Virus record (IMG/VR): IMGVR_UViG_3300030104_002795 | Coordinates: 1-45,719 of that record | DNA: 45,719 nt | Origin: a virus | Reading direction: 5' to 3' (one strand) | In this document: one piece after another, positions 1-45,298 of the stretch | Position numbering within the stretch: position 1 is the first letter of the stretch | Layout: each line of letters opens with the position of its first letter | Made by a program: the position numbers and the translations under genes | The notes under the pieces: model-generated | Databases searched by the model: none | The model's input: only the letters and a program-made list of their open reading frames with translations | What the model was told of the DNA's origin: nothing

Positions 1-3000
1 AAAGTTTCTGTAGGTACTGGTCTTGATGCTCAGTTTTATCATAGTGGTTCTCATACGTACATAGAAAATAGTACTGGTAATTTAGAGCTCATACAAAATA
101 CAGATAGTGGAGATATTATATTTAAGTCTGATGACGGATCTGGTGGAACTACTGAATATTACAGACTTGACGGTGGTGATAATATAAATTATTTCTCTAA
201 ACATATTAAAGTGCCAGACAGTGTAAAAATGTATCTAGGTAGCTCTCAAGATCTTCAATTATATCATGATGGTAGTCATGGTTATATTTCAGATCAAGGA
301 ACAGGTGAATTAAGACTTCTTAGTTCAGGTTTATCAATAATGAGCGCAAATGGTGCTGAATATATTGCTTATTTTGCAGGCACTGGGGGTCAGACTGCAA
401 GTTTATATGCAGGTAATTCAAAGAAATTCGAAACGACAAGTGCGGGGGTTAAAATCACAGGTATACCTACTATTGAAACAGCTACCGCTTCTGGTACAGC
501 TATGTACATCCACAATACAACTGATTCTATTGCAGATACAAAAACGCTTATTGATTTTAGAGCACACGCTAGTGACAACAGTACTTTCTATGTGTCGGGT
601 CAAATGGGTAGTAAAGCAGAAGGAACTTGGACAAGTACAAGTAGTACAAGAGACGCTTCATTAATATTTAACACTGTATTAAATGGTAATAATGAACTTG
701 CATTAACATTAAGAAGTGATAAGTTAGCTGCTTTTCAAGGTGATGTTACAATACCTGCAGCAAAAGCGTTGTATTTAGATGGTGGTGGTGGAACTTATAT
801 AATTCAAGCTACTGATGGTGTTATAGATTTTTATGGTGATACTGTGCATCTAGTTTCAATGAAACAAAATGGAACACAAAATGAGGTTGTAGTAAACGAA
901 GGTAGTGGAGATGTTGATTTTAGAGTAGAAGCAAATAATCAAACTCATCTTCTCTTTGCTGAAGCAGAAGGAGTTGGAAAAGTAGGAATTGGAACTGCCG
1001 TACCACCATTCCAAAAATTAACTGTTACAGGTGTAAGCGGTGCTGCGGATGGTAATTTAGAAAATGGAATTTTAGCTTTAACAACTGGAACTGGTGTTGT
1101 TGCTGATACAAGATTATTATTTGGTATAGTTGATGATACGTACGCTTGGATACAAGCAGCAGATTACGGGGTAGCTTATAGAGATATATCTTTAAATCCT
1201 AATGGAGGAAACGTTAGTATAAAAGTAGCAGGAGCTGCTAAAGCTAAATTACACGTTAAAAATGATGCTAATGCTTGGGAAGACGGTGTTTTATTAGAAC
1301 ATCACACTGGTAATACTGGTTGGAATATACACCCTGAAGATAATTCAGATAACGCATTGTGGTTTGGTTATAATGCTGACACATCAGTGGCGTTAACCTC
1401 ACAAGCAGCAACCGCCGCTTTAAAACTAAATAGTGATTTAAGTGCAACTTTTGCAGGTAGTATAGAAGTAAGTGGTACAAATACTATTTTTGGCGCATCA
1501 GGCGCTTCAATGACAGGTATAGAGTTTGGGGCAAATCAAGTAAAAATTAGACCTAAAGGTAGTTTAGCAAATGGTAGAATATGGAGAGAAAGTAATTACT
1601 TGATTTATGATTCACCTAGCGCTGGTCATAAATTTGCAGTAGCAGGCAGTGCTACAAGTAATGTGGCTTTAACTATAGATTCCTCACAAAATGCAACTTT
1701 TGCAGGGGCAATTGATGTGAGAGGCGCTGGATATAATCAAATAAAAATAGCAACTAATCTTACCGCTGACACAAATAAACAATCAGGAATTATAACAGAA
1801 AATTATGAGGGAAATAATGTAAGTATTTTCCAAACGTTTCAACAAAATAATAGTAATGCTATTTATTATGGTAGCGCCGATAGTGCTTACGCGGGAATAC
1901 AAACCCATTATTTTATGGTTAATGCTGATTCTGATACTGCTGGAAGTGGTCACACAACAGCTTTAACTATTACAAGTAATACAAACGCAACTTTTGCAGG
2001 TAGTGTTGCGTTAGCTGATGAAAAACAAATCCAGTTAGGTAATTTATCAGCTGGAGATTTAAAACTTTATCATGATGCTACTGATAGTATTATTGTAAAT
2101 AAAACTGGTGATTTAAAAATAATGAACCAAGCTGATGATAAGGATATTATATTAATGTCAGATAATGGTAGTGGTGGTGATACAGCTTACATAACTTTAG
2201 ATGGAAGTGAATCTAGTATAGTAATTAGTAAAAATACTTTCCACGCTGATAATGTTGCTACTTATTTTGGCAGTTCTAATGATATGTACATTAGGCACGA
2301 TGGTACTAATAATCAAATTCTCAGCAGCACTGGTAATCTTGATTTTGAACAACATGCTGATGATGGGAATATAAGATTTTATAATGACAATGGATCAGGA
2401 GGCGTTACGTTATATTTTTACTTAGATGGAGCAGGAGCTGCAACAAATGACTATTACACTGTATTTCAAGATTATGTGAGAGCAGCGTTTGGTACTGGAA
2501 AAGATTTAAAAATATGGCACGATGCTACTAGTAGTTATATTCGCAACGAAACTGGTTCTCTTTATCTGATGAGTGCAGCAGACGATAATGATATGTATTT
2601 CCAATGTGATGACGGAGCTGGAGGTTTAAGAAACTACTTTTATTTTGATGGTAGTATGGCAGCAAGTGGTGGTCTCTGTTATACAATATTTCCTGATAAT
2701 AGTGTATTATCTATTGGAGATAGTTCAGATTTAAAAATATCACATCAAAGTGGTCATAGTTATATAGAAAATGGTACTGGAGTTTTAAATATTACTAACA
2801 GCGGTGGTGATCTTAATTTTGATGTTTCTGCAGATATAATTTTAGATGCTGATGGTGGGGATATAAAACTTAAAGATGGTGGCACAGCAAGGCATACTAT
2901 TTCTATGCAAGCAAATGGAGATACTTATTTTGTAAATGAAACTGCTGATGCTGATATAATGATTAGAGGTGTAGATGGTTCTTCAACAATAACTGCCCTT

Positions 3001-4443
3001 ACCTTAGATATGTCAAACGCTGGTTCAGCAACATTTAACGATGATGTTGATGTGAACGGTAATATTTACGTTGGTGTTGGCACGGAGGCTGGTATGGTGG
3101 GAATAACATATTCAGATATTAGTACGGGTGAAAATAGAGGGTTAAGAATAATTAATACTAGTGGAACTGATCAACAGTGGAATATCACAGCAGGAATTAC
3201 AGGGCAAGAAAATGAATCTTTCTGTATCAGAGATGCAACTGCTAACGTGAATGCTCTTACAATGGCTATATCATCTGGTAATGCAACTTTTGCAGGTACA
3301 ATAACAAGCACTAAAGCTCTTACAAGTGGGTATATAAACGAACATATAAATACTAGTAATCACAGCAATGCTTACGCTTCTATGAAGTGGAAAAACGATG
3401 ATGCTGGTTTTGGTGAAATATGGAGAAATAGCTCAGCTAGGTCAAGTACTGGACAAGGCGTGAAGTCTTTCAACATGTATAATAGTAATGATATAAACTT
3501 CTGGTCTGGTAGCACTCATACTTTACTTTTAAGCGGTAATGACGCAACTTTTGCAGGTAATGTTATTTTAGAAAATGCTAGTAGTCCAAAGATAGAATTA
3601 AAAGACACTACTAATAATTGTTATTTATATATGTATGCGCAAGATAGTAATGCTATTATGGGTACATACAGCAATCACGCGTTAAAATTATTTTCAAACA
3701 GCACTGAGGCATTAGAATTTGATACATCACAAAATGCAACTTTTGCAGGGATGATTACCACTGGTGATGCTGGCAATAGTTTCTATGCGACTGGTTATAG
3801 AAGAAGCGGTAGTGGTACAGATACAGTACCAGATATTTGGGGTGATAGTAACAATTTAGTTTTAGGTTATGATTCTAATAATTACGGTATTGCCATAAGA
3901 GATGAAGGTGTTGTTGTAAACGATACACTCGTATTACAATCTGGTTCACCTGAAATGTATTTTTATAGCACAGGTAATCACCATAATTGGATGGTTGCTG
4001 CTCAAGAAAATGTAGATACTTGCTTGGAATTTAGTGTAACAGGTTCAACGTCAACAAGTTTAGATTACGACGCTAGTAATTATACTAGAATATTAACATT
4101 ATATCAAAATGGTAATGCAACTCTTGCTGGTACGTTTACCGCATCTGGTGACGTTGTAGCATACTCTGATGAAAGATTAAAAACAGATATTAAAACGTTA
4201 GATGGATCTAAGGTTTATGAAATGAGAGGGGTAGGTTTTACTAAAGATGATAAAAAAGGTAGTGGTGTTATAGCACAAGAGTTAGAAAAAATAGCCCCTG
4301 AATTGGTAAACAATGATAGTGAATATAAAGCTGTAGCTTATGGTAATATAACAGGTTATTTAATTGAAGCTATTAAAGATTTAAAAGCTGAAATTGAAGA
4401 ATTAAAAAAATGTAATAAGTGTAACGATTGTGATTGTAAATAA
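1..4443 (+). CDS. Tail fibre/spike with C-terminal S74 chaperone (5' partial)
   Basis: The frame is open from the first base of the window, so the true start lies to the left and an internal GTG at 211 is not the start. At least 1480 residues are encoded. The body is built of imperfect beta-rich repeats: units of the kind LKLYHD...TGDLKI...GSGG...LDG (about 70 residues) and spacer units ending ATFAG. The last 92 residues form a peptidase S74 intramolecular chaperone: motif SDERLKTDI with the Ser at 4165 and the Lys at 4180 (the Ser/Lys self-cleavage dyad of the family), followed by GVIAQELEKIAPELV and a terminal coiled coil ending in KCNKCNDCDCK. Members of this family trimerise fibres and are released by autoproteolysis. 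It likely forms the host-receptor-binding fibre. The Cys-rich tail after the coiled coil is unusual. Confidence 0.9.
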   Translation, partial: KVSVGTGLDAQFYHSGSHTYIENSTGNLELIQNTDSGDIIFKSDDGSGGTTEYYRLDGGDNINYFSKHIKVPDSVKMYLGSSQDLQLYHDGSHGYISDQGTGELRLLSSGLSIMSANGAEYIAYFAGTGGQTASLYAGNSKKFETTSAGVKITGIPTIETATASGTAMYIHNTTDSIADTKTLIDFRAHASDNSTFYVSGQMGSKAEGTWTSTSSTRDASLIFNTVLNGNNELALTLRSDKLAAFQGDVTIPAAKALYLDGGGGTYIIQATDGVIDFYGDTVHLVSMKQNGTQNEVVVNEGSGDVDFRVEANNQTHLLFAEAEGVGKVGIGTAVPPFQKLTVTGVSGAADGNLENGILALTTGTGVVADTRLLFGIVDDTYAWIQAADYGVAYRDISLNPNGGNVSIKVAGAAKAKLHVKNDANAWEDGVLLEHHTGNTGWNIHPEDNSDNALWFGYNADTSVALTSQAATAALKLNSDLSATFAGSIEVSGTNTIFGASGASMTGIEFGANQVKIRPKGSLANGRIWRESNYLIYDSPSAGHKFAVAGSATSNVALTIDSSQNATFAGAIDVRGAGYNQIKIATNLTADTNKQSGIITENYEGNNVSIFQTFQQNNSNAIYYGSADSAYAGIQTHYFMVNADSDTAGSGHTTALTITSNTNATFAGSVALADEKQIQLGNLSAGDLKLYHDATDSIIVNKTGDLKIMNQADDKDIILMSDNGSGGDTAYITLDGSESSIVISKNTFHADNVATYFGSSNDMYIRHDGTNNQILSSTGNLDFEQHADDGNIRFYNDNGSGGVTLYFYLDGAGAATNDYYTVFQDYVRAAFGTGKDLKIWHDATSSYIRNETGSLYLMSAADDNDMYFQCDDGAGGLRNYFYFDGSMAASGGLCYTIFPDNSVLSIGDSSDLKISHQSGHSYIENGTGVLNITNSGGDLNFDVSADIILDADGGDIKLKDGGTARHTISMQANGDTYFVNETADADIMIRGVDGSSTITALTLDMSNAGSATFNDDVDVNGNIYVGVGTEAGMVGITYSDISTGENRGLRIINTSGTDQQWNITAGITGQENESFCIRDATANVNALTMAISSGNATFAGTITSTKALTSGYINEHINTSNHSNAYASMKWKNDDAGFGEIWRNSSARSSTGQGVKSFNMYNSNDINFWSGSTHTLLLSGNDATFAGNVILENASSPKIELKDTTNNCYLYMYAQDSNAIMGTYSNHALKLFSNSTEALEFDTSQNATFAGMITTGDAGNSFYATGYRRSGSGTDTVPDIWGDSNNLVLGYDSNNYGIAIRDEGVVVNDTLVLQSGSPEMYFYSTGNHHNWMVAAQENVDTCLEFSVTGSTSTSLDYDASNYTRILTLYQNGNATLAGTFTASGDVVAYSDERLKTDIKTLDGSKVYEMRGVGFTKDDKKGSGVIAQELEKIAPELVNNDSEYKAVAYGNITGYLIEAIKDLKAEIEELKKCNKCNDCDCK
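1444..3749 (+). repeat. Dispersed 14-bp repeat GCAACTTTTGCAGG in fibre gene
   Basis: Six identical copies in the same reading frame (coding ATFAG) start at 1444, 1693, 1987, 3283, 3544 and 3736; a seventh at 4117 differs at two bases. Each lies at the junction between two different beta-rich modules. The core TGCAA-CTT-TTGCA, present in most copies, is itself an inverted repeat. Identity at the nucleotide level, including third codon positions, exceeds what amino acid conservation needs. Confidence 0.85.
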
Positions 4444-4445
4444 AT

Positions 4446-5036
4446 ATGGGAACATTTGCAGAAAACTACATTAAGGCGGATATAATATTTGAAGATGATG
4501 GTTATTACTGGGTTGATCCAACTAATAGTAAAAAAGAACCTGTTATGATGGAGTGGGAAACACCAATAATGCAAAAAATGGCAGATGTTTCTGTAGATAA
4601 AAATGATAATGTCTTAGAGTTAGGTTTTGGTATGGGTATTTTATCAGATATGATACAGGCTAAAAAACCAAAAACACACACAATTGCAGAGTGTCATAAA
4701 GATATTATACCTAAATTAAAAGAGTGGGCAAAAGATAAACCTAACGTTATAGTTAAAGAAACTAGATGGATAGAGTTATTGAAAGAAGATACAAAATACG
4801 AATCAATAATACTTGATACGTACGCTGATACTGATCGTATAAATTTTTGTGATTTTGCAGTAAGAAAAGCAAGTCTTAATAACACAAAAGTTACATGGTG
4901 GAATCCAAAGGATACCGCTCTTGGTTTTGATGATTACAGGTTTACAAAACATAGTATAGACATAAGCCCACCTAATATACAAGATTATTATACAAAAAAC
5001 ACATTCAATGTTCCACTTAAAATATTAGCACAATGA
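4446..5036 (+). CDS. Guanidinoacetate-methyltransferase-like SAM methyltransferase
   Basis: A 196-residue class I SAM-dependent methyltransferase. Motif I is VLELGFGMGI (residues 57-66), the acidic ribose-binding position is E82 in AECH, and the post-IV motif is LDTYAD (123-128). The combination of MMEWETPIM (34-42), GFGMG, EC and DTY is the signature of guanidinoacetate N-methyltransferase and the arginine delta-N-methyltransferase (RMT2) group; E38 and D124 correspond to the guanidino-binding Glu and Asp of GAMT as I recall them. The family methylates guanidino nitrogens; the phage substrate is unknown and could be free arginine-like metabolites or a virion protein. The gene starts two bases after the fibre stop and overlaps the next gene by ATGA, so it is co-translated with structural genes. 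Confidence 0.75.
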   Translation: MGTFAENYIKADIIFEDDGYYWVDPTNSKKEPVMMEWETPIMQKMADVSVDKNDNVLELGFGMGILSDMIQAKKPKTHTIAECHKDIIPKLKEWAKDKPNVIVKETRWIELLKEDTKYESIILDTYADTDRINFCDFAVRKASLNNTKVTWWNPKDTALGFDDYRFTKHSIDISPPNIQDYYTKNTFNVPLKILAQ

Positions 5037-5629
5037 CTATCGGGGCATCAGGAGCAATATCTATAGGTAATGGTGGCGCAGGCTCTAATACAATAAATAG
5101 TGAAATGGGAAGGTCTGCTAACACCGCAAACACATCACTAAAAGAACTATCAGATGGTACTAATGGAACTATAAATGTTACAAACCTAAACGCAAATAAA
5201 CCAGACACATCAACACCGCACGCGATGAGTGAGTTTTACAAGTATGAACATAGTGTAACTTTAAACACAACACCTGGTAGTGTAAGTGTTGGTAGTAGTG
5301 GAGTAACTGGAAATACAATATCAGTAACACACGCTACATATTCAACTTGGTATGTATCATCTAAACCATCTTGGGTTACTATAACCGGTGGTTCAACATC
5401 TAGTGGTAGTCCAAATACAGGAGATGGGACAGTCACATATAACGCTTCGTCAAACTCAGGAAGTTCAAGGAGTGGTAGTCTTGTCGTAACTTTAGCAGTA
5501 GGAACAACAGGTGGTGGTGTAGGTGATTCTGATTCATCTACAACTAGAACTACAACAATATCACAGTCAGCAGGTTCTGGTGGTGGTGGTGGTGGTGGCC
5601 GCGGTGGAGGTGGTGATGATAGCCCATAG
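5033..5629 (+). CDS. BACON/Ig-like domain virion protein with poly-Gly tail
   Basis: A 198-residue protein. Residues 1-70 are a Gly/Ser/Asn-rich segment ending MSEFYKY, a type common in phage tail-associated proteins. Residues about 71-178 resemble a BACON domain: VSSKPSWVTITGG, then GDGTVTYNASSNSG, SSRSGSLVVTLA and TTTISQSAG, the order of strands expected for this all-beta, putative glycan-binding fold. The C-terminus is GGGGGGGRGGGGDDSP, encoded by a GGT run. The start ATG overlaps the methyltransferase stop. BACON domains are typical of Bacteroidota proteins and of crAss-like phage tail proteins, so an accessory adhesion role is likely. Signal peptide and membrane segment are absent. Confidence 0.7.
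   Translation: MTIGASGAISIGNGGAGSNTINSEMGRSANTANTSLKELSDGTNGTINVTNLNANKPDTSTPHAMSEFYKYEHSVTLNTTPGSVSVGSSGVTGNTISVTHATYSTWYVSSKPSWVTITGGSTSSGSPNTGDGTVTYNASSNSGSSRSGSLVVTLAVGTTGGGVGDSDSSTTRTTTISQSAGSGGGGGGGRGGGGDDSP
5579..5612 (+). repeat. GGT trinucleotide run coding poly-Gly
   Basis: About seven consecutive GGT units followed by a GGC-CGC-GGT-GGA-GGT-GGT tract in an otherwise AT-rich sequence. The unit length preserves the reading frame, so slippage would vary the length of the glycine tail without frameshifting. Confidence 0.8.
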
Positions 5630-6426: not shown

Positions 6427-6622
6427 TATTGGCAAAGATTATAAAAATGAAGCTATGCATTACTCCGTGGGTCAAGAGGTCTACGGAGGGCATACAATAT
6501 GTAACATAATTGAGGAAGATACTAAATACAGTATTTATATTAGAAAAGAAAAGGACGTTTTACCTTGGAAAGACTTTAATAAAAATATGGCTGTTTCAGT
6601 AGAATACAACCTTGAATATTAA
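6401..6622 (+). CDS. Hypothetical protein, 73 residues
   Basis: A short, probably all-beta protein (YSVGQEVYGGHTICNIIEED, then KYSIYIRKEKDVLPWKDF). It starts inside the preceding gene and its stop overlaps the ATG of the next gene by one base, so it is part of a coupled run leading into the terminase. An internal ATG at 6455, 18 codons downstream, would avoid the 26-base overlap with the upstream gene and is an alternative start. No family is recognised. Confidence 0.65.
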   Translation: MSKLIRKISIGKDYKNEAMHYSVGQEVYGGHTICNIIEEDTKYSIYIRKEKDVLPWKDFNKNMAVSVEYNLEY

Positions 6623-7221
6623 TGCAAACCTTATATAATTTTATAATCAAGCCAATAGGTAATAGGTACAATAATGCTAAAAAAATTGGTGATAAAGAAC
6701 TTATATTAAACACAGAAATATTTAACCATCAGTATGTTAATAGAGAGGCTAAAGTTATTGCTTTGCCCAAACTATTAGATACTGATATATCTGTTAATGA
6801 TACTGTACTAGTTCATCATAATATATTTAGAAGGTGGCATGATGTCAAGGGTATAGAAAAAAATAGTAGAGATTATATAGGAAATAATTTATATAGCGCT
6901 AATCAAGATCAAGTGTTTGCTTACAAAAAAAATAACGAGTGGAAAGCTTTACCTGGTTATTGTTTTGTACAACCAATTGAATCGCAAGATAGTTTTAGTG
7001 TTGATAAAGAAAAACCTTTAATTGGCATTATTAAATATATAAGCGATGATATTGACGGTATTAAAGTTAATGATACTATTGGTTTTATACCTTATAGCGA
7101 ATATGAATTTGTTTTAAACGGTAAAAGATTATATAGAGTATTAACAAAATTTATTACAATTAAATATGAATATAAAGGAAACCAAAAAGAATATAATCCA
7201 CGCTGGGCGCAAAGCAGTTGA
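6622..7221 (+). CDS. GroES-like co-chaperonin candidate
   Basis: A 199-residue protein that reads as two chaperonin-10-like halves. Half one: YNFIIKPIGNRY, then AKVIALP and ISVNDTVLVHHNIF, ending in a FAYK edge. Half two: GYCFVQPIES, then GIIKYIS, GIKVNDTIGFIP, and a closing ...LYRVLTKFITIKYE. The order 'basic first strand, turn, V-x-x-x-x, VxVxDxVxF' is that of GroES and phage gp31-type co-chaperonins, which cap GroEL so that capsid proteins fold. Length is twice that of GroES. Sequence similarity is weak, so this is a fold-level call; the position just upstream of the terminase and capsid genes supports a role in capsid folding. Confidence 0.45.
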   Translation: MQTLYNFIIKPIGNRYNNAKKIGDKELILNTEIFNHQYVNREAKVIALPKLLDTDISVNDTVLVHHNIFRRWHDVKGIEKNSRDYIGNNLYSANQDQVFAYKKNNEWKALPGYCFVQPIESQDSFSVDKEKPLIGIIKYISDDIDGIKVNDTIGFIPYSEYEFVLNGKRLYRVLTKFITIKYEYKGNQKEYNPRWAQSS

Positions 7222-39910: not shown

Positions 39911-41647
39911 CTAACCATCACAACTTAAACAACTCTCTTGCATAGCTTGCTCAGCTATATCTCCTCTGAGAACTGATTCTGTTCTCATATAATATAAAGT
40001 TTTAATACCCTTCTTCCAAGCTTCTAAGTGTACTTTGTTAATAAACTTAGGATCAGCTTGAGCAGGAAACGCTAGATTTAAGCTAACAGCTTGATCTATA
40101 TACTGTTGTCTTATACCTGCTTGATTAACTAAATCTAGTTGATTAATCTCCTTAAACGTTTTATAAACTTCTTTTATAGGTATATCTCCTTCTGGACCTA
40201 CCTTAATCTTATCAAGTTCTTTTATTCCTTGAACAGATCCCCCATCAGTTAATATTTGATTCCATATTTTATCTGTATTTAAGTTATGTTCTTTTAATAC
40301 AGCTTCGAGCGTAGGGTTCCTACGTATGAAAGTCCCCTTAGCAGACTGATCAGTAAAAACGTTAGCGGCCCAAGGCTCAATGCCAGGGCTAATATTGCCG
40401 CTGAGCTTGCTATTACTAACAGTAGGAGCAATGGCACGAAGATGAGTGTTCCGCATACCAGTACCAACACACCAAAGAGGCTCACCAAATTCCTCAGCAA
40501 GCGCCATTGAGGCTCTTTCGCTTTCAATTTTAATCTGACTAAATATTCTTCTAGTTTCATATTGTGCTAATAATCCTTCGAAAGGAAAACCTTTCTGTTG
40601 TAAATATGTGTGCCAACCAAGAACTCCTAAACCTAAAGCTCTACCTTTTTCAGCAGACCTTATAGCGTTTTCAAATCCTCTTACATTTTTAGCTCTTTGT
40701 ATGAATTCTTCTAATACACCATCTAAAAACCATATACTATCATAGATTAAATTACTATCTTTCCACTCATGATATTTAGCTAGATTTAAACTAGATAAAC
40801 AACACACAAAACTATGTGATTCATCAGTGTGTAATACAATCTCTGAGCATATATTAGTCATAAAAACTTTTAATGCATTATCTTTATACATACTAGGGTT
40901 TTGTTTATTAACATTACCCTTGAACATTACATAAGGTTCTCCAGTTGCTTTACGTTTTTGTAATAACTTACTCCATTTACGTCTTGCAACTTTATCTCCA
41001 GCAGCTAATTTTCTCATAAACTTATCACTAATAACAGCACATTGATGCATGTTTAGTGATTGTCTATTTACATCACCTTTAGGTTCTCTAATTTCTAACC
41101 AGTCTTCCCAATCAGGATGATCTATATTCAAATTAACTGATGCGGCTCCTCGTCTTACACTTCCTTGATTTGTAGCTAATATAGTTGAATCATATATTTT
41201 ACAAAACGGTACAACACCATCTGATGTTCCATTGTTTGTAATTGTAGATCCAGCTGGTCTTATTTGATTTACACCAATACCAACTCCACCACCATGTTTA
41301 GCTAACAACATCATTTCTAAATTTTTGTTACCGATGTCATAGATTGAATCTGCAACATCAATACCAAAACAACTAATAGGAAAACCTCTATCAGTTCCCA
41401 TATTAGATAATACCGGAGAAGCTAAACATAACCATCCTTTCCAAATATATTCAAAGAATTTTTCTTCTAATTCAGGTTTGTTTAGTCTTTTTGCTGCAGC
41501 CTTAGCTACTCTTTCGTACGCTTCTTTAGGTGTTTCACCATTATAAAGGTATCCTCCAGTTATAGTTTTTTTATATACTTCAGCGTCTGCCCACTCTGGG
41601 TAATCAACGCCTTTTTTCCATCTATTACTCCACATCTCTAAAAACAA
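39911..41647 (-). CDS. nrdA: Ribonucleotide reductase class I alpha subunit, no ATP cone
   Basis: A 578-residue catalytic subunit reducing ribonucleoside diphosphates to deoxy forms. Active-site residues by family pattern: C93 in PISCFG, N265-x-C267-x-E269 in TNICSEI (radical cysteine C267), C282 in FVCCLSSLNL, the radical-transfer pair Y552-Y553 in LYYMRTES, and the C-terminal redox pair C573/C576 in ESCLSCDG. The N-terminal ATP cone of cellular NrdA is absent, consistent with a length near 580 rather than 760, so overall dATP inhibition is probably lost. Last gene of the leftward operon; its start overlaps the preceding small gene by 23 bases (ATG 41635 is an alternative start). Confidence 0.95.
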   Translation of the reverse strand: MFLEMWSNRWKKGVDYPEWADAEVYKKTITGGYLYNGETPKEAYERVAKAAAKRLNKPELEEKFFEYIWKGWLCLASPVLSNMGTDRGFPISCFGIDVADSIYDIGNKNLEMMLLAKHGGGVGIGVNQIRPAGSTITNNGTSDGVVPFCKIYDSTILATNQGSVRRGAASVNLNIDHPDWEDWLEIREPKGDVNRQSLNMHQCAVISDKFMRKLAAGDKVARRKWSKLLQKRKATGEPYVMFKGNVNKQNPSMYKDNALKVFMTNICSEIVLHTDESHSFVCCLSSLNLAKYHEWKDSNLIYDSIWFLDGVLEEFIQRAKNVRGFENAIRSAEKGRALGLGVLGWHTYLQQKGFPFEGLLAQYETRRIFSQIKIESERASMALAEEFGEPLWCVGTGMRNTHLRAIAPTVSNSKLSGNISPGIEPWAANVFTDQSAKGTFIRRNPTLEAVLKEHNLNTDKIWNQILTDGGSVQGIKELDKIKVGPEGDIPIKEVYKTFKEINQLDLVNQAGIRQQYIDQAVSLNLAFPAQADPKFINKVHLEAWKKGIKTLYYMRTESVLRGDIAEQAMQESCLSCDG

Positions 41648-41867
41648 CTTGTTTTACACGCATGTATTTTTGCATTTGTTTATATGTTGAGTCAGGTATA
41701 CTGTATAATTCTTCAGCCGTATAACTATATAAGTTGCCATTTTTGTCAACTAAAGTCCAGGCTAAAACATCATTAGTATCAATACACCAATCATTTGTTT
41801 TACGTAAGTCTACCTCTTTACTGTATAATAATGCAGTAAATAACGTAGTAATTAATATATATTTCAT
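41625..41867 (-). CDS. Small secreted protein between nrdB and nrdA
   Basis: An 80-residue protein starting with a short signal-like segment (MKYILITTLFTALLYSKEVD), followed by TNDWCIDTNDVLAWTLVDKN and YTAEELYSIPDSTYKQMQKY. It lies 18 bases after nrdB and overlaps nrdA, so it is translated with the reductase genes although it appears to be exported. It has one Cys in the mature part and is not a glutaredoxin or thioredoxin. The reading frame is preserved and has normal codon use; no family known to me beyond similar orphans in marine phages. Confidence 0.65.
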   Translation of the reverse strand: MKYILITTLFTALLYSKEVDLRKTNDWCIDTNDVLAWTLVDKNGNLYSYTAEELYSIPDSTYKQMQKYMRVKQVVFRDVE

Positions 41868-41885
41868 AATAATAAATTTTAATTG

Positions 41886-42845
41886 TTACCAGATATTCTC
41901 GAAATCTTCTCCCTCATTTGCTTTGCTGTAGTCGGTAGGCCTGATCGCAAAGAAGTCAGTGTGAGTGTGACCACCAGTAAGATGATAGAACCAGTCAAGA
42001 TTCTTAGCACCTTTGTCATCATATTCGAAGATCTCTTTATATCCGAGTTCTTTAAGTTTTTCATTTGTTCTCTTTCTAATAAATTGTTTTAAGTCATATT
42101 TAGTTAGATTTTCTAGATCACCCATTTCAAACATCTTGTCTATATATTTTTCTTCTAATTCTACCATTGTCATTGCTGCTTCTTCTATATGTGGCTTACA
42201 CGCCTTAAGTAATAAAGGTTTTTCTTCACACATATGTCTAAATAATCGACAACCCATTTTACTGTGTAGAGATTCATCCCTCACAGACCACTTCATTTGT
42301 TGTCCTACGCCTTTTAATAAGTTTCTTAGTTGAAAGCTATATAGCACTGCAAAAGCTGAATATAAACTTACTCCCTCTGCAAAAGCTGAAAATACAGCTA
42401 ATGACTTTCCAATCTCTACAGGATCTGTGCCATCATAACTTACTAAGTTATCGAACCTCTCCGCGGTGGCAGGTTCGTGTAAAAACGCTTCAAAGTTTTC
42501 CAACCCTAACGTTTCATTTAAATAGGAATATGCAACAGCGTGTATTGTTTCTTGTGATCCAAACATCATAGCCATTTGTTGTATTTCATGTTTAGGAAAC
42601 CAACCAACTACTTTTTGTGTCCAATAATCTGATACAGCACATTCAGTCTGTGCAAATCCTAATAATATATTACCAACTAAATTCTTCTCAGCTGGTTTTA
42701 ATTTTTCATTCCAGTCTTTAACATCACCACTCATTGGTATTTCAGTATGTAACCAAAATGCTTGAGCTTGCGGCAACCAACCTTCTGTGTAATATTCTGG
42801 ATATTCAAAAGGTTTATACGGTATTCTTTCATCAAATAGTCCCAT
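41886..42845 (-). CDS. nrdB: Ribonucleotide reductase class I beta subunit
   Basis: A 319-residue ferritin-like radical subunit. Metal ligands follow the R2 pattern: E68 (AQTECAV), E99 and H102 (QETIHAVAY), E157 (AFAEGVSLY), E191 and H194 (RDESLHSKMG). Y106, four residues after H102, is in the position of the stable tyrosyl radical (E. coli Y122), so a class Ia-like di-iron or di-metal tyrosyl radical enzyme is expected. The C-terminus ENEGEDFENIW-type tail carries the aromatic residues that dock R2 onto R1. Encoded two genes upstream of nrdA in transcription order, 13 bases overlapping the preceding micro-gene. Confidence 0.95.
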   Translation of the reverse strand: MGLFDERIPYKPFEYPEYYTEGWLPQAQAFWLHTEIPMSGDVKDWNEKLKPAEKNLVGNILLGFAQTECAVSDYWTQKVVGWFPKHEIQQMAMMFGSQETIHAVAYSYLNETLGLENFEAFLHEPATAERFDNLVSYDGTDPVEIGKSLAVFSAFAEGVSLYSAFAVLYSFQLRNLLKGVGQQMKWSVRDESLHSKMGCRLFRHMCEEKPLLLKACKPHIEEAAMTMVELEEKYIDKMFEMGDLENLTKYDLKQFIRKRTNEKLKELGYKEIFEYDDKGAKNLDWFYHLTGGHTHTDFFAIRPTDYSKANEGEDFENIW

Positions 42846-42996
42846 CGTAATCGTAAAATAATGTTAAACAACAATCAAATAACCCTAAATAGATTACATG
42901 ATCAACTTTTAATTCTGCTTCTTCTACATACTGTCTATATCCAAATAACAAGCCTGTAAATAATCCAAAACTTATTTCCCATCTAATTAATTTCAT
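42832..42996 (-). CDS. Small membrane-like protein, 54 residues
   Basis: ATG at 42996 overlaps the previous gene's TGA (ATGA) and the stop lies 14 bases inside nrdB. The sequence MKLIRWEISFGLFTGLLFGY, then RQYVEEAELKVDHVIYLGLF and DCCLTLFYD resembles a family of about 50-residue proteins with the core 'FGLxxGLLFGxRxY...DHVxYLxxxD' that I recall from many marine phages. Hydrophobic but not a standard transmembrane helix; function unknown. Overlaps on both sides support translation. Confidence 0.65.
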   Translation of the reverse strand: MKLIRWEISFGLFTGLLFGYRQYVEEAELKVDHVIYLGLFDCCLTLFYDYDGTI

Positions 42997-43139
42997 CTTC
43001 CTTGTCCTCTGTATTTAGTTCCACAATAATACTTACCATCTTTATTGTTGGTATGTTTGTTCTTTGAGTGAATTCCTGGGCGTTTTTTCTTTGGCTTTTC
43101 AAACCACATATTCATTCCAAATGTTTTTCTTTTAGCCAT
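42993..43139 (-). CDS. Basic micro-protein, 48 residues
   Basis: ATG at 43139, 8 bases inside the nuclease gene, and TGA at 42993. The sequence MAKRKTFGMNMWFEKPKKKR, then PGIHSKNKHTNNKDGKYYCG, TKYRGQGR is a type seen repeatedly in phages: the 'KKKRPGxHSKxK...KYRGQGR' core is conserved in my recollection. It contains a His/Cys set and an Arg-rich end, suggesting nucleic-acid binding. Found in the replication operon, unlike the other micro-proteins, which sit in the late region. Confidence 0.75.
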   Translation of the reverse strand: MAKRKTFGMNMWFEKPKKKRPGIHSKNKHTNNKDGKYYCGTKYRGQGR

Positions 43140-43572
43140 ATTTAATTAAATTTACAACGTCATCACATTCACTTTGTCTTTGGGGTTTGTATAATTTATA
43201 ATTTCTTAAATATCTAGAAACATATTTCTTAAACATTTTCCAACGTAAAGGAAACGTCTCATTTGGTCTACCTTTACATTCAATTATAAAATCCTTACCC
43301 TCAAAATCTGGTGTATACTTAATAGCTAAAACTTTTTTATTTCCTCTATTAACCATACTACCCTTACCGTTTGCTTGTCTTTCATAGGATTCATTTGTAA
43401 AATCAAATCCCTCAAAAATTTCAAACGTTCTTTTTTCATAGTCTGCTTTTATTTTAGCTCTCTTTAATGCTTTATACATATAAGCTTCAAGACCGCTAGC
43501 AAACTTAATCCCGTCAACAGTAATTTTCTTACTTACAACGGGACCTCGTTTTCTCTTAATTCTTCTTCTCAC
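43132..43572 (-). CDS. T7 endonuclease I-like Holliday junction resolvase
   Basis: A 146-residue PD-(D/E)xK nuclease. Catalytic residues by pattern: E29 in SGLEAYMYKAL, D89 in YTPDF, and E98-x-K100 in IIECKG, matching E20, D55, E65 and K67 of T7 endonuclease I in order and spacing. The family cuts four-way junctions and branched DNA to prepare replicated DNA for packaging. A basic N-terminus (MRRRIKRKRGP) may help DNA binding. Overlaps both neighbours by 8 to 17 bases in the leftward operon. Confidence 0.85.
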   Translation of the reverse strand: MRRRIKRKRGPVVSKKITVDGIKFASGLEAYMYKALKRAKIKADYEKRTFEIFEGFDFTNESYERQANGKGSMVNRGNKKVLAIKYTPDFEGKDFIIECKGRPNETFPLRWKMFKKYVSRYLRNYKLYKPQRQSECDDVVNLIKYG

Positions 43573-43816
43573 CTTTATCCATCATTTTTGCCATATATTG
43601 TATTTCATCTCGCAAACAATATTTTGCAGATTCTAAATACAATAAAGCATCCATTAACTCCTCTTGTACATCTTCCATAAAATGATAAAGAGTTTTTTGT
43701 CTTCTTTCTATTTCTGACTCCATAGTATCACCGTATTTACGCTGACCTATTAAGCTACGTTTGTCCATTTTCTTTAGGACTTTTCTAACTATTGCGTCTT
43801 TTGTTTTAATTTCCAT
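43556..43816 (-). CDS. Small MazG-like (all-alpha NTPase) protein
   Basis: An 86-residue helical protein. RSLIGQRKYGDT is followed by a long helix with EDVQEELMDALLYLESA (E52, E53, D56), the ExxD half-motif of all-alpha NTP pyrophosphohydrolases such as MazG. The first EExxE half is not evident, so either it dimerises to complete a site or is a regulatory relative. Phage proteins with 'VG.xKYG.TL...EELxDAxxYL' are very common in replication regions. It precedes a true MazG domain protein in transcription, overlapping the nuclease gene by 17 bases. Confidence 0.6.
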   Translation of the reverse strand: MEIKTKDAIVRKVLKKMDKRSLIGQRKYGDTMESEIERRQKTLYHFMEDVQEELMDALLYLESAKYCLRDEIQYMAKMMDKGEKKN

Positions 43817-44642
43817 TTGGTTCGTCCATTAATAATGTTATTTCTGCCTCTGATAAACCATCTGTTTTAACAAATGTACCGTTTATCATTTTGCCCTTGC
43901 GTTTACTTATAACGTTATATGCTTGTGCTATACACGTTTCAATATGTACGCCATTTAAATGAGCTAGGTTAGTTAGTACAACAACCATATCACCTATAGC
44001 ATCTTGTATTTCAGCATCATCTTTATTTAATAAAGCTTTTGCTAATTCACCTGCTTCTTCTTGTAATTTTATGTATTGAGTTTTAACATCACCTTTTTGA
44101 TATATACCTCTTTCATCCGCCCATTGCCTAATGTTTTCAAACATTTTCAAAGGCTTCTTAGAGCATTTAATTAAACTTCTTTTGTTTATAGGTTTATTAA
44201 TAAACACTGAAAAAGCTTTGTTATATATGTAAGATCTGTCGTGGTTATACATAGATGTTTTTACGTTTTTCATTATCCACTGTATTGTCTCACTGTCTAT
44301 TATAAATCGACCGTGATCTGTTTCCCACTCCATACCTATAACATCAAACAACCTGCCTTTTAATTTATCAACAGGCACTGGAAATGTTGTGGTTTGTTCT
44401 GTTACGTTTATTTTCATATTGGTTTTTGGTTTTAAATATTTATATAATCTATGGTCAACTTTATAACCATATTCCTTTTGTAATTCTACTTCTCTATCTG
44501 ATATATAATCTACATCACTAGAGACTTCTAATACTTCATATTCTTCTGGTGTGTAACCTTGTTGCATTGTGACCCGGTTATTAAGATCACAGGTGACACC
44601 TATTTTTTTACCAGGTATATGATATAAATAATACTTTGTCAT
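43806..44642 (-). CDS. GIY-YIG-like / MazG fusion protein
   Basis: A 278-residue protein with two recognisable ends. Residues 1-70 look like a degenerate GIY-YIG nuclease: KYYLYHIPGKKIGVTCDLNN, then a helix and a DREVELQKEYGYK segment; the canonical second YIG reads KIG and the catalytic Arg position is NRV. Residues 166-262 are a MazG pyrophosphohydrolase: LQEEAGELAKAL (E195, E196, E199), EIQDAIGDMVVVLTNLA (D214, D218) and a KGKMINGTFVKTDG end. The family hydrolyses non-canonical or all (d)NTPs to monophosphates and can lower (p)ppGpp. The middle (75-165) is unassigned. Start overlaps the upstream synthase-like gene by 4 bases. Confidence 0.75.
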   Translation of the reverse strand: MTKYYLYHIPGKKIGVTCDLNNRVTMQQGYTPEEYEVLEVSSDVDYISDREVELQKEYGYKVDHRLYKYLKPKTNMKINVTEQTTTFPVPVDKLKGRLFDVIGMEWETDHGRFIIDSETIQWIMKNVKTSMYNHDRSYIYNKAFSVFINKPINKRSLIKCSKKPLKMFENIRQWADERGIYQKGDVKTQYIKLQEEAGELAKALLNKDDAEIQDAIGDMVVVLTNLAHLNGVHIETCIAQAYNVISKRKGKMINGTFVKTDGLSEAEITLLMDEPNGN

Positions 44643-45298
44643 CGCTTATCTAATTTATCATTATAAATATGCATGTTATGCGCATGGTGATAATACCATC
44701 CCGTCTCCATAGACAATCTCTCTGCAATTATTTTATGTAACATACTAAAACAGTATTGATCATTACAAAAACCGTACCAGAGATCATTAGATCTCATGTA
44801 AACAGACATATTTAGTTTATCATCTAATATAGTAAATTGCACTGCGTAAGTACAGGGAGTATCAGTATTATATTTAGGGTATTCTTTACAATCATATATG
44901 CTTATAGCTGCATGTCTAGTATTAGGATTAGTTCTTAGTTTACCAACTACATAATCTATTTGATTATTTCGTTTCCACTGCCAACCATAATTACTATTAA
45001 CATTTCCATCCCTATCAGCCATACGTTGCCATATTGGAGGTATTTTACCGTATATCTCACCTAGTTTATCTATGTTCTGATCACCTGATAAATACCACTG
45101 CCATTCTGCTTTTGCATATTCTTCATTCCAACCTCTAAAATCTACATCTATTGTATTCTCCTCTGGGTGATGCATTGTAAAGCCACAATTAAATATAGCT
45201 TTTGTATTATCAAAATCTACACCATTGTCTTTAATGTAATCCCAAAGAAAATTAAATGCATGATTAGCATTATAAAAGTTTTGTTTTAAGCTTCCCAT
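44639..45298 (-). CDS. Thymidylate synthase-superfamily enzyme, dCMP hydroxymethylase-type
   Basis: A 219-residue ThyA-fold protein. Catalytic Cys149 is in DTPCTYAVQF; PPIWQRMADRDGNVNSNYGW and the MRSNDLWYGFCNDQ segment follow the fold. In thymidylate synthase the base-selecting residue is Asn (N177, in LPFN); here the aligned position is D180. In T4 gp42 dCMP hydroxymethylase, as I recall it, C148 and D179 lie in nearly the same surroundings (MRSNDVVFGFRND), so the enzyme probably acts on dCMP rather than dUMP. Product could be 5-hydroxymethyl- or 5-methyl-dCMP, or it may still be a divergent thymidylate synthase. It overlaps both neighbours in the leftward operon. GHIYxNH-type end reads MHIYNDKL. 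Confidence 0.8.
   Translation of the reverse strand: MGSLKQNFYNANHAFNFLWDYIKDNGVDFDNTKAIFNCGFTMHHPEENTIDVDFRGWNEEYAKAEWQWYLSGDQNIDKLGEIYGKIPPIWQRMADRDGNVNSNYGWQWKRNNQIDYVVGKLRTNPNTRHAAISIYDCKEYPKYNTDTPCTYAVQFTILDDKLNMSVYMRSNDLWYGFCNDQYCFSMLHKIIAERLSMETGWYYHHAHNMHIYNDKLDKR

Follow-up and report, generated by a model that had tools for sequence, protein, structure and literature searches.

A GAMT/RMT2-type methyltransferase gene in a viral tail operon covaries with the one arginine of the Gly-rich C terminus of a neighbouring BACON-like protein

Introduction

Guanidinoacetate methyltransferase (GAMT) is the creatine-making enzyme, and the methyl group it transfers goes onto the internal guanidino nitrogen. 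We take residues E45 and D134 of GAMT to be the acids that bind the guanidino group, with D134 also acting as the catalytic base. The catalytic domain of RMT2 is presumably GAMT-like and of the same kind as the phage enzyme described here. Protein arginine methyltransferases (PRMTs) prefer Gly-Arg-rich tails and, to our knowledge, delta-N-methylarginine has so far been described from eukaryotic proteins.

Yeast RMT2, a type IV PRMT, forms delta-N-methylarginine on Arg67 of Rpl12 (PMC3365026, PMC4860837), and BlsL, an enzyme of blasticidin S biosynthesis, is GAMT-like with 33% identity to GAMT (PMC5572114). Phage proteins were first described as methylated in 2026, in a study of marine flavobacterial phages: virion proteins of the Cellulophaga phages phi18:1, phi38:1 and phi18:4, tail proteins included, contain methyl-Arg/Lys (PMC13288928). 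As methyltransferase genes are not known from these phages, the authors inferred that host enzymes are responsible (PMC13288928), whereas the phage analyzed here carries its own candidate methyltransferase. A search of the open literature for GAMT-like or arginine-methylating phage enzymes returned none. The BFVD entry A0A8D9CBY1, from an uncultured marine phage, shares the fold and family of the enzyme (TM 0.82, 27% identity), but its name, "putative guanidinoacetate methyltransferase," is automatic and comes with no description of substrate or context.

Locus and Operon Context

The window, i.e., the whole stretch of DNA analyzed, is a virus record of 45.7 kb. The methyltransferase gene has a tail fibre gene upstream and the gene of a BACON-like protein downstream:

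211-4443, + strand: tail fibre, 1410 aa, with a C-terminal Peptidase_S74 intramolecular chaperone (PHROG tail fibre E 1e-27; Peptidase_S74 E 5e-10)
4446-5036, + strand: GAMT/RMT2-type class I SAM-dependent methyltransferase, 196 aa (phmmer, family profile, AlphaFold model)
5033-5036, + strand: ATGA overlap of the methyltransferase stop and the start of the Gly-tail protein (direct sequence reading)
5033-5629, + strand: BACON-like tail protein with a Gly-rich C-terminal tail, 198 aa, the proposed substrate

The methyltransferase ORF is real and starts with ATG, and dN/dS values of 0.08-0.23 among its close relatives indicate that it is under purifying selection. The fibre stop codon lies 2 nt ahead of this ATG and the ATGA overlap follows at the other end, which bears out the gene context given in an earlier note on this DNA. 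The note had also called the downstream product a BACON protein, which stands in the weaker form "BACON-like," as the Pfam match (E 0.002, 18.5 of 25 bits) is below the cutoff. AlphaFold predicts a beta domain in this protein well (residues 78-178) and renders residues 181-198 as low-confidence coil. The protein has no match in a collection of 50,697 phage records.

Family and Active Site of the Enzyme

All motifs that had been claimed for the ORF are present, namely MMEWETP (M34-P40), GFGMG (60-64), EC (E82/C83) and DTY (124-126). In a phmmer search against all PDB chains, rat and human GAMT came out on top (E 1.7e-14 to 8e-13) and KsgA followed at only 3e-4, which puts the GAMT match far above chance. 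A profile built from 65 relatives matched GAMT in the PDB with an E of 5e-48 and the next family with 3e-7. The AlphaFold model of the enzyme (pLDDT 92.3) superimposes with its residues 1-195 on GAMT 12-235, giving a Z of 22.5 and an rmsd of 2.2 Å over 188 residues, and the best non-GAMT family in the same comparison reached a Z of 17.1. No PRMT is among the 50 structural matches listed, which has no bearing on excluding that class. With GAMT (PDB 1xcj, 1khh, 3orh) the phage enzyme has in common MExWETPxM, GFGM, E89, W116, DTY, the E45/D134 pair and the fold, and the relatives conserve the further GAMT positions M41, W44, G67, G69, E89 and W116; it differs in an identity of 22-28% and in the location of its gene in a tail operon with no AGAT partner found.

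By both sequence and fold the family groups with GAMT, apart from DNA methyltransferases and from generic protein methyltransferases. Measured against GAMT sequences and fold, its membership of the GAMT/RMT2-type family is certain for practical purposes. As a candidate KsgA/Erm rRNA methyltransferase it gave weak matches to shared SAM motifs only, with RrnaAD/KsgA below threshold, and its identification as a DNA methyltransferase found no support. Generic DNA methyltransferase, PrmA/PrmC and rRNA methyltransferase families gave no match above threshold, and no PHROG family was matched by the methyltransferase.

Neither of the two observations that the earlier note had named as counting against its reading was made: the homologues do not group with generic phage methyltransferases, and the acids of a guanidino site are present. 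The two acids given in the note, E38 and D124, align with those of GAMT, and both are near-invariant in the family:

4557-4559, + strand: codon of E38, equivalent to the guanidino-binding E45 of GAMT; Glu in 64/64 family members
4815-4817, + strand: codon of D124, equivalent to D134 of GAMT (guanidino-binding, catalytic base); Asp in 63/64, Asn in L060

On the acceptor side, the stretch that leads from strand 5 to the PP motif has 25 residues here versus 49 in rat GAMT. It is about half as long, and the L170/T171 loop of GAMT does not align with the phage enzyme. In GAMT, we take the post-strand-5 segment, i.e., this loop and the following helix, to cover the carboxylate end of guanidinoacetate. 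Judging from segment length, the acceptor side would be more open than in GAMT, and an acceptor-closing segment of about half the length fits a peptide substrate.

The shortened segment speaks against a small-molecule guanidino methyltransferase, either a true GAMT or an enzyme for another metabolite, whose gene would have come to lie in the tail module by chance as an auxiliary metabolic gene. Such an enzyme would agree with GAMT being the nearest solved relative, with the name that BFVD gives to one family member and with the precedent of BlsL, likewise a bacterial GAMT-like guanidino N-methyltransferase, which belongs to a natural-product cluster and acts on a small molecule (PMC5572114). 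However, an amidinotransferase of the AGAT superfamily (PF02274) was found in 0/18 gene-bearing records, which are partial and in which the control worked. Moreover, many viral groups that are not related to one another have the gene next to tail genes, and a metabolite as substrate leaves unexplained the covariation with a tail arginine described below. We therefore consider a small-molecule function very unlikely.

Covariation of a Tail Arginine with the Gene

In the BACON-like protein, the Gly-rich tail has only one Arg, R190, located in GGGGGGGRGGGG:

5573-5626, + strand: Gly-rich C-terminal tail, residues 181-198, ending GGGGGGGRGGGGDDSP
5600-5602, + strand: CGC codon of Arg190, the single tail Arg and proposed methylation site (covariation with the methyltransferase gene)

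We tallied the non-identical Gly-tailed homologues with visible flanks, with and without a methyltransferase gene. In 18/18 of those adjacent to the gene, the C-terminal 18 residues contain one Arg and no more, positioned beside Gly. Without the gene, this motif occurs in 0/23, with Lys, Met, Phe or nothing in its place, and any tail Arg in 2/23 (GGGGRP). The association of gene and motif gave a Fisher value of 5e-12, with kinship ignored. The definition of the motif drew on the first 45 tails; a prediction fixed before a further scan was borne out, with the motif in 1/1 with the gene and 0/9 without. The new observation here is that the single tail Arg of the adjacent BACON-like protein covaries with the methyltransferase gene. 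For the claim of the earlier note that an arginine of a virion protein may be methylated, as opposed to a metabolite, this provides support that is indirect but specific.

In a phylogeny built from the body of the protein, with the tail left out, gene and Arg each switch seven times and always together. Independent pairs are all concordant, four of them on well-supported branches and seven on the best tree, and none is discordant, although with only four well-supported pairs a sign test cannot reach 0.05. Close contrasts illustrate the switches: Arg in the window (GGGGGGGRGGGG) is opposed to Lys in L139 (GGGGGGGKGGGG, end GGGGGGGKGGGGEP), EGLRGG in L144 (GGNEGLRGGDGLP) to EGLGDG in L171 (GGNEGLGDGGGEDP), and ESGGGR in L227 to ESGGGFDP in L198.

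The main non-functional rival to methylation of the tail Arg is co-inheritance, in which a protein methyltransferase acts on another tail target, be it the fibre or a different residue, and its gene and the Gly-Arg tail travel as one exchange cassette. The two genes adjoin and recombination could carry both. Yet in the window family the distance from the methyltransferase gene down to the tail is about 550 bp, and the variable body that lies in between makes co-inheritance less likely; the seven concordant switches on the body tree also speak against it. Furthermore, the single Arg is retained in tails that otherwise vary widely, and the methyltransferase gene is found on either side of the tail gene (upstream in 14 cases, downstream in 4) and next to two tail families.

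Other Tail Families

The second of these families comprises proteins of 103-118 aa that end GGG(P)GR. With the methyltransferase gene, the terminal Arg is present in 22/22 (11 of them new), and in this family the gene was never seen without it. The reciprocal rule, "no gene, no Arg," which we had predicted in advance, failed, as 10/19 members without a detected gene still end Gly-Arg, and the Arg of this family is therefore not dependent on the enzyme. No methyltransferase was found elsewhere in 13 partial records of gene-less second-family tails. Gly-Pro-Gly-Arg ends without a detected methyltransferase occur in L309, L315, L318, L322, L325-L327, L329, L331, L333 and L336; several such tails are loosened (GSGPGR), and their relatives L330 and L335 have Gln for Arg. 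A third context is found in L020-L025, where the product of the upstream gene has the C terminus GGC[AS]RGCI, which supports the link between gene and tail Arg.

The gene-bearing groups B, C, G, J, K and L, as well as the Hint-tailed L203, have no adjacent Gly-Arg tail, so that such a tail cannot be the substrate in every member, and more than one substrate is probable for the methyltransferase family. In group B, the product of the upstream gene has a conserved [GS]GR[ST] about 22 residues before its end and was left out of the covariation count. Both the groups lacking a Gly-Arg tail and the second-family tails that keep Arg without the gene are in keeping with co-inheritance of gene and tail as a cassette; weighed together with the body tree, the variable spacing body and the two gene orders, we regard that explanation as unlikely.

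Distribution of Relatives

Relatives of the methyltransferase were found in 82 viral contigs (best 80 kept), all of them uncultured, and in 48 genome contigs. Among the 50,697 phage records, the sole match was the uncultured LR745206, and no cultured phage was matched. In LR745206.1 (635 kb), the relative at 347921-348442 (L014:7953-8537) directly follows structural, fibre-like genes. The survey of homologue neighbours, which the earlier note had advised, showed tail genes recurrently adjoining the gene in many unrelated viral groups; in most of them a long fibre-like gene precedes the methyltransferase directly or a few genes off. In the methyltransferase tree, the tail-associated groups form several clades, among them that of the window group and the Hint-fused group (12 rows) and the GGR group, and bacterial homologues fall outside these clades or are basal. 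None of the bacterial homologues has a Gly-Arg tail next to it.

Two fusions occur among the relatives. The methyltransferase of L020-L025 (e.g., L021:5947-6999) continues at its C terminus into a Hint-like domain of the intein/hedgehog type, with similarity (E 2e-9) to the one in L203. Very long proteins with Ser/Thr/Phe/Asn repeats are encoded on both sides of this gene, and the upstream protein is that with the GGC[AS]RGCI end. In L077-L084 (e.g., L078:5965-6942), a divergent family methyltransferase has a DUF3310 domain (E 1e-13) as fusion partner, and its neighbours are kinase-like and nucleotidyltransferase-like genes, not tail genes. Within the family of the BACON-like protein itself, L188, L196, L203, L209, L230 and about 30 others end in a Hint-type domain (...TYTILTKNNNFYAGGVLVHSEI) instead of a Gly-rich tail, and the two look like alternative ends in this tail-protein family.

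Proposed Reaction

Methylation of the tail Arg is the best-supported reading of these data, and we favor it with reasonable confidence. We think it fairly probable that the gene encodes a SAM-dependent protein methyltransferase, co-translated with its neighbours, that acts on R190 of the BACON-like tail, likely with a delta-N product. Translation would yield the enzyme along with the fibre and the BACON-like protein, and methylation of R190 in the flexible Gly-rich tail would take place before or during virion assembly. The BACON-like protein is presumably part of the virion, where the modification may serve adsorption or protection of the exposed tail. More tentatively, we put forward the broader possibility that uncultured marine phages have their own GAMT-derived protein-arginine methyltransferase for one Gly-tail Arg of a tail-associated, adhesin-like protein, probably modified at delta-N.

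E38 and D124 sit where GAMT has its guanidino-binding acids, which makes delta-N-monomethylarginine the likely product, with the methyl group on the internal guanidino nitrogen. Methylation at an omega nitrogen, as by PRMTs, would accord with the preference of those enzymes for Gly-Arg-rich tails, and sequence cannot reveal the product. However, GAMT and yeast RMT2 (for RMT2, PMC3365026, PMC4860837), which presumably share this active site, methylate the internal nitrogen, which makes an omega product quite unlikely and delta-N-monomethylation of R190 the most likely reaction. With RMT2 the phage enzyme would share a protein arginine as substrate and a single dedicated protein site, although RMT2 is a eukaryotic enzyme with a ribosomal substrate.

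If true, phage-made arginine methylation of a tail protein would be a protein edit unreported before in bacterial viruses and a parallel in these viruses to eukaryotic Gly-Arg methylation. The proposed link would explain why the tail Arg comes and goes with the gene, and it offers a phage-encoded candidate enzyme with a named, testable site where the 2026 study assumed host enzymes. It also re-labels a family that is currently named as creatine enzymes in virus databases.

Other Features of the Virus Record

The terminases nearest to that of the window are those of a Manatee Spring Podoviridae genome of 61 kb (63%) and of Flavobacterium, Cellulophaga and Tenacibaculum phages. In the stretches read of two terminase relatives, no methyltransferase is annotated near the terminase. 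A gene for a GroES-like co-chaperonin (6622-7221; PHROG E 6e-19) directly precedes the terminase region of the window, and GroEL/GroES are also found in relatives. At 39911-45298, ribonucleotide reductase-like genes, a thymidylate synthase (E 2.5e-28) and a MazG/PRA-PH-like gene are located on the minus strand.
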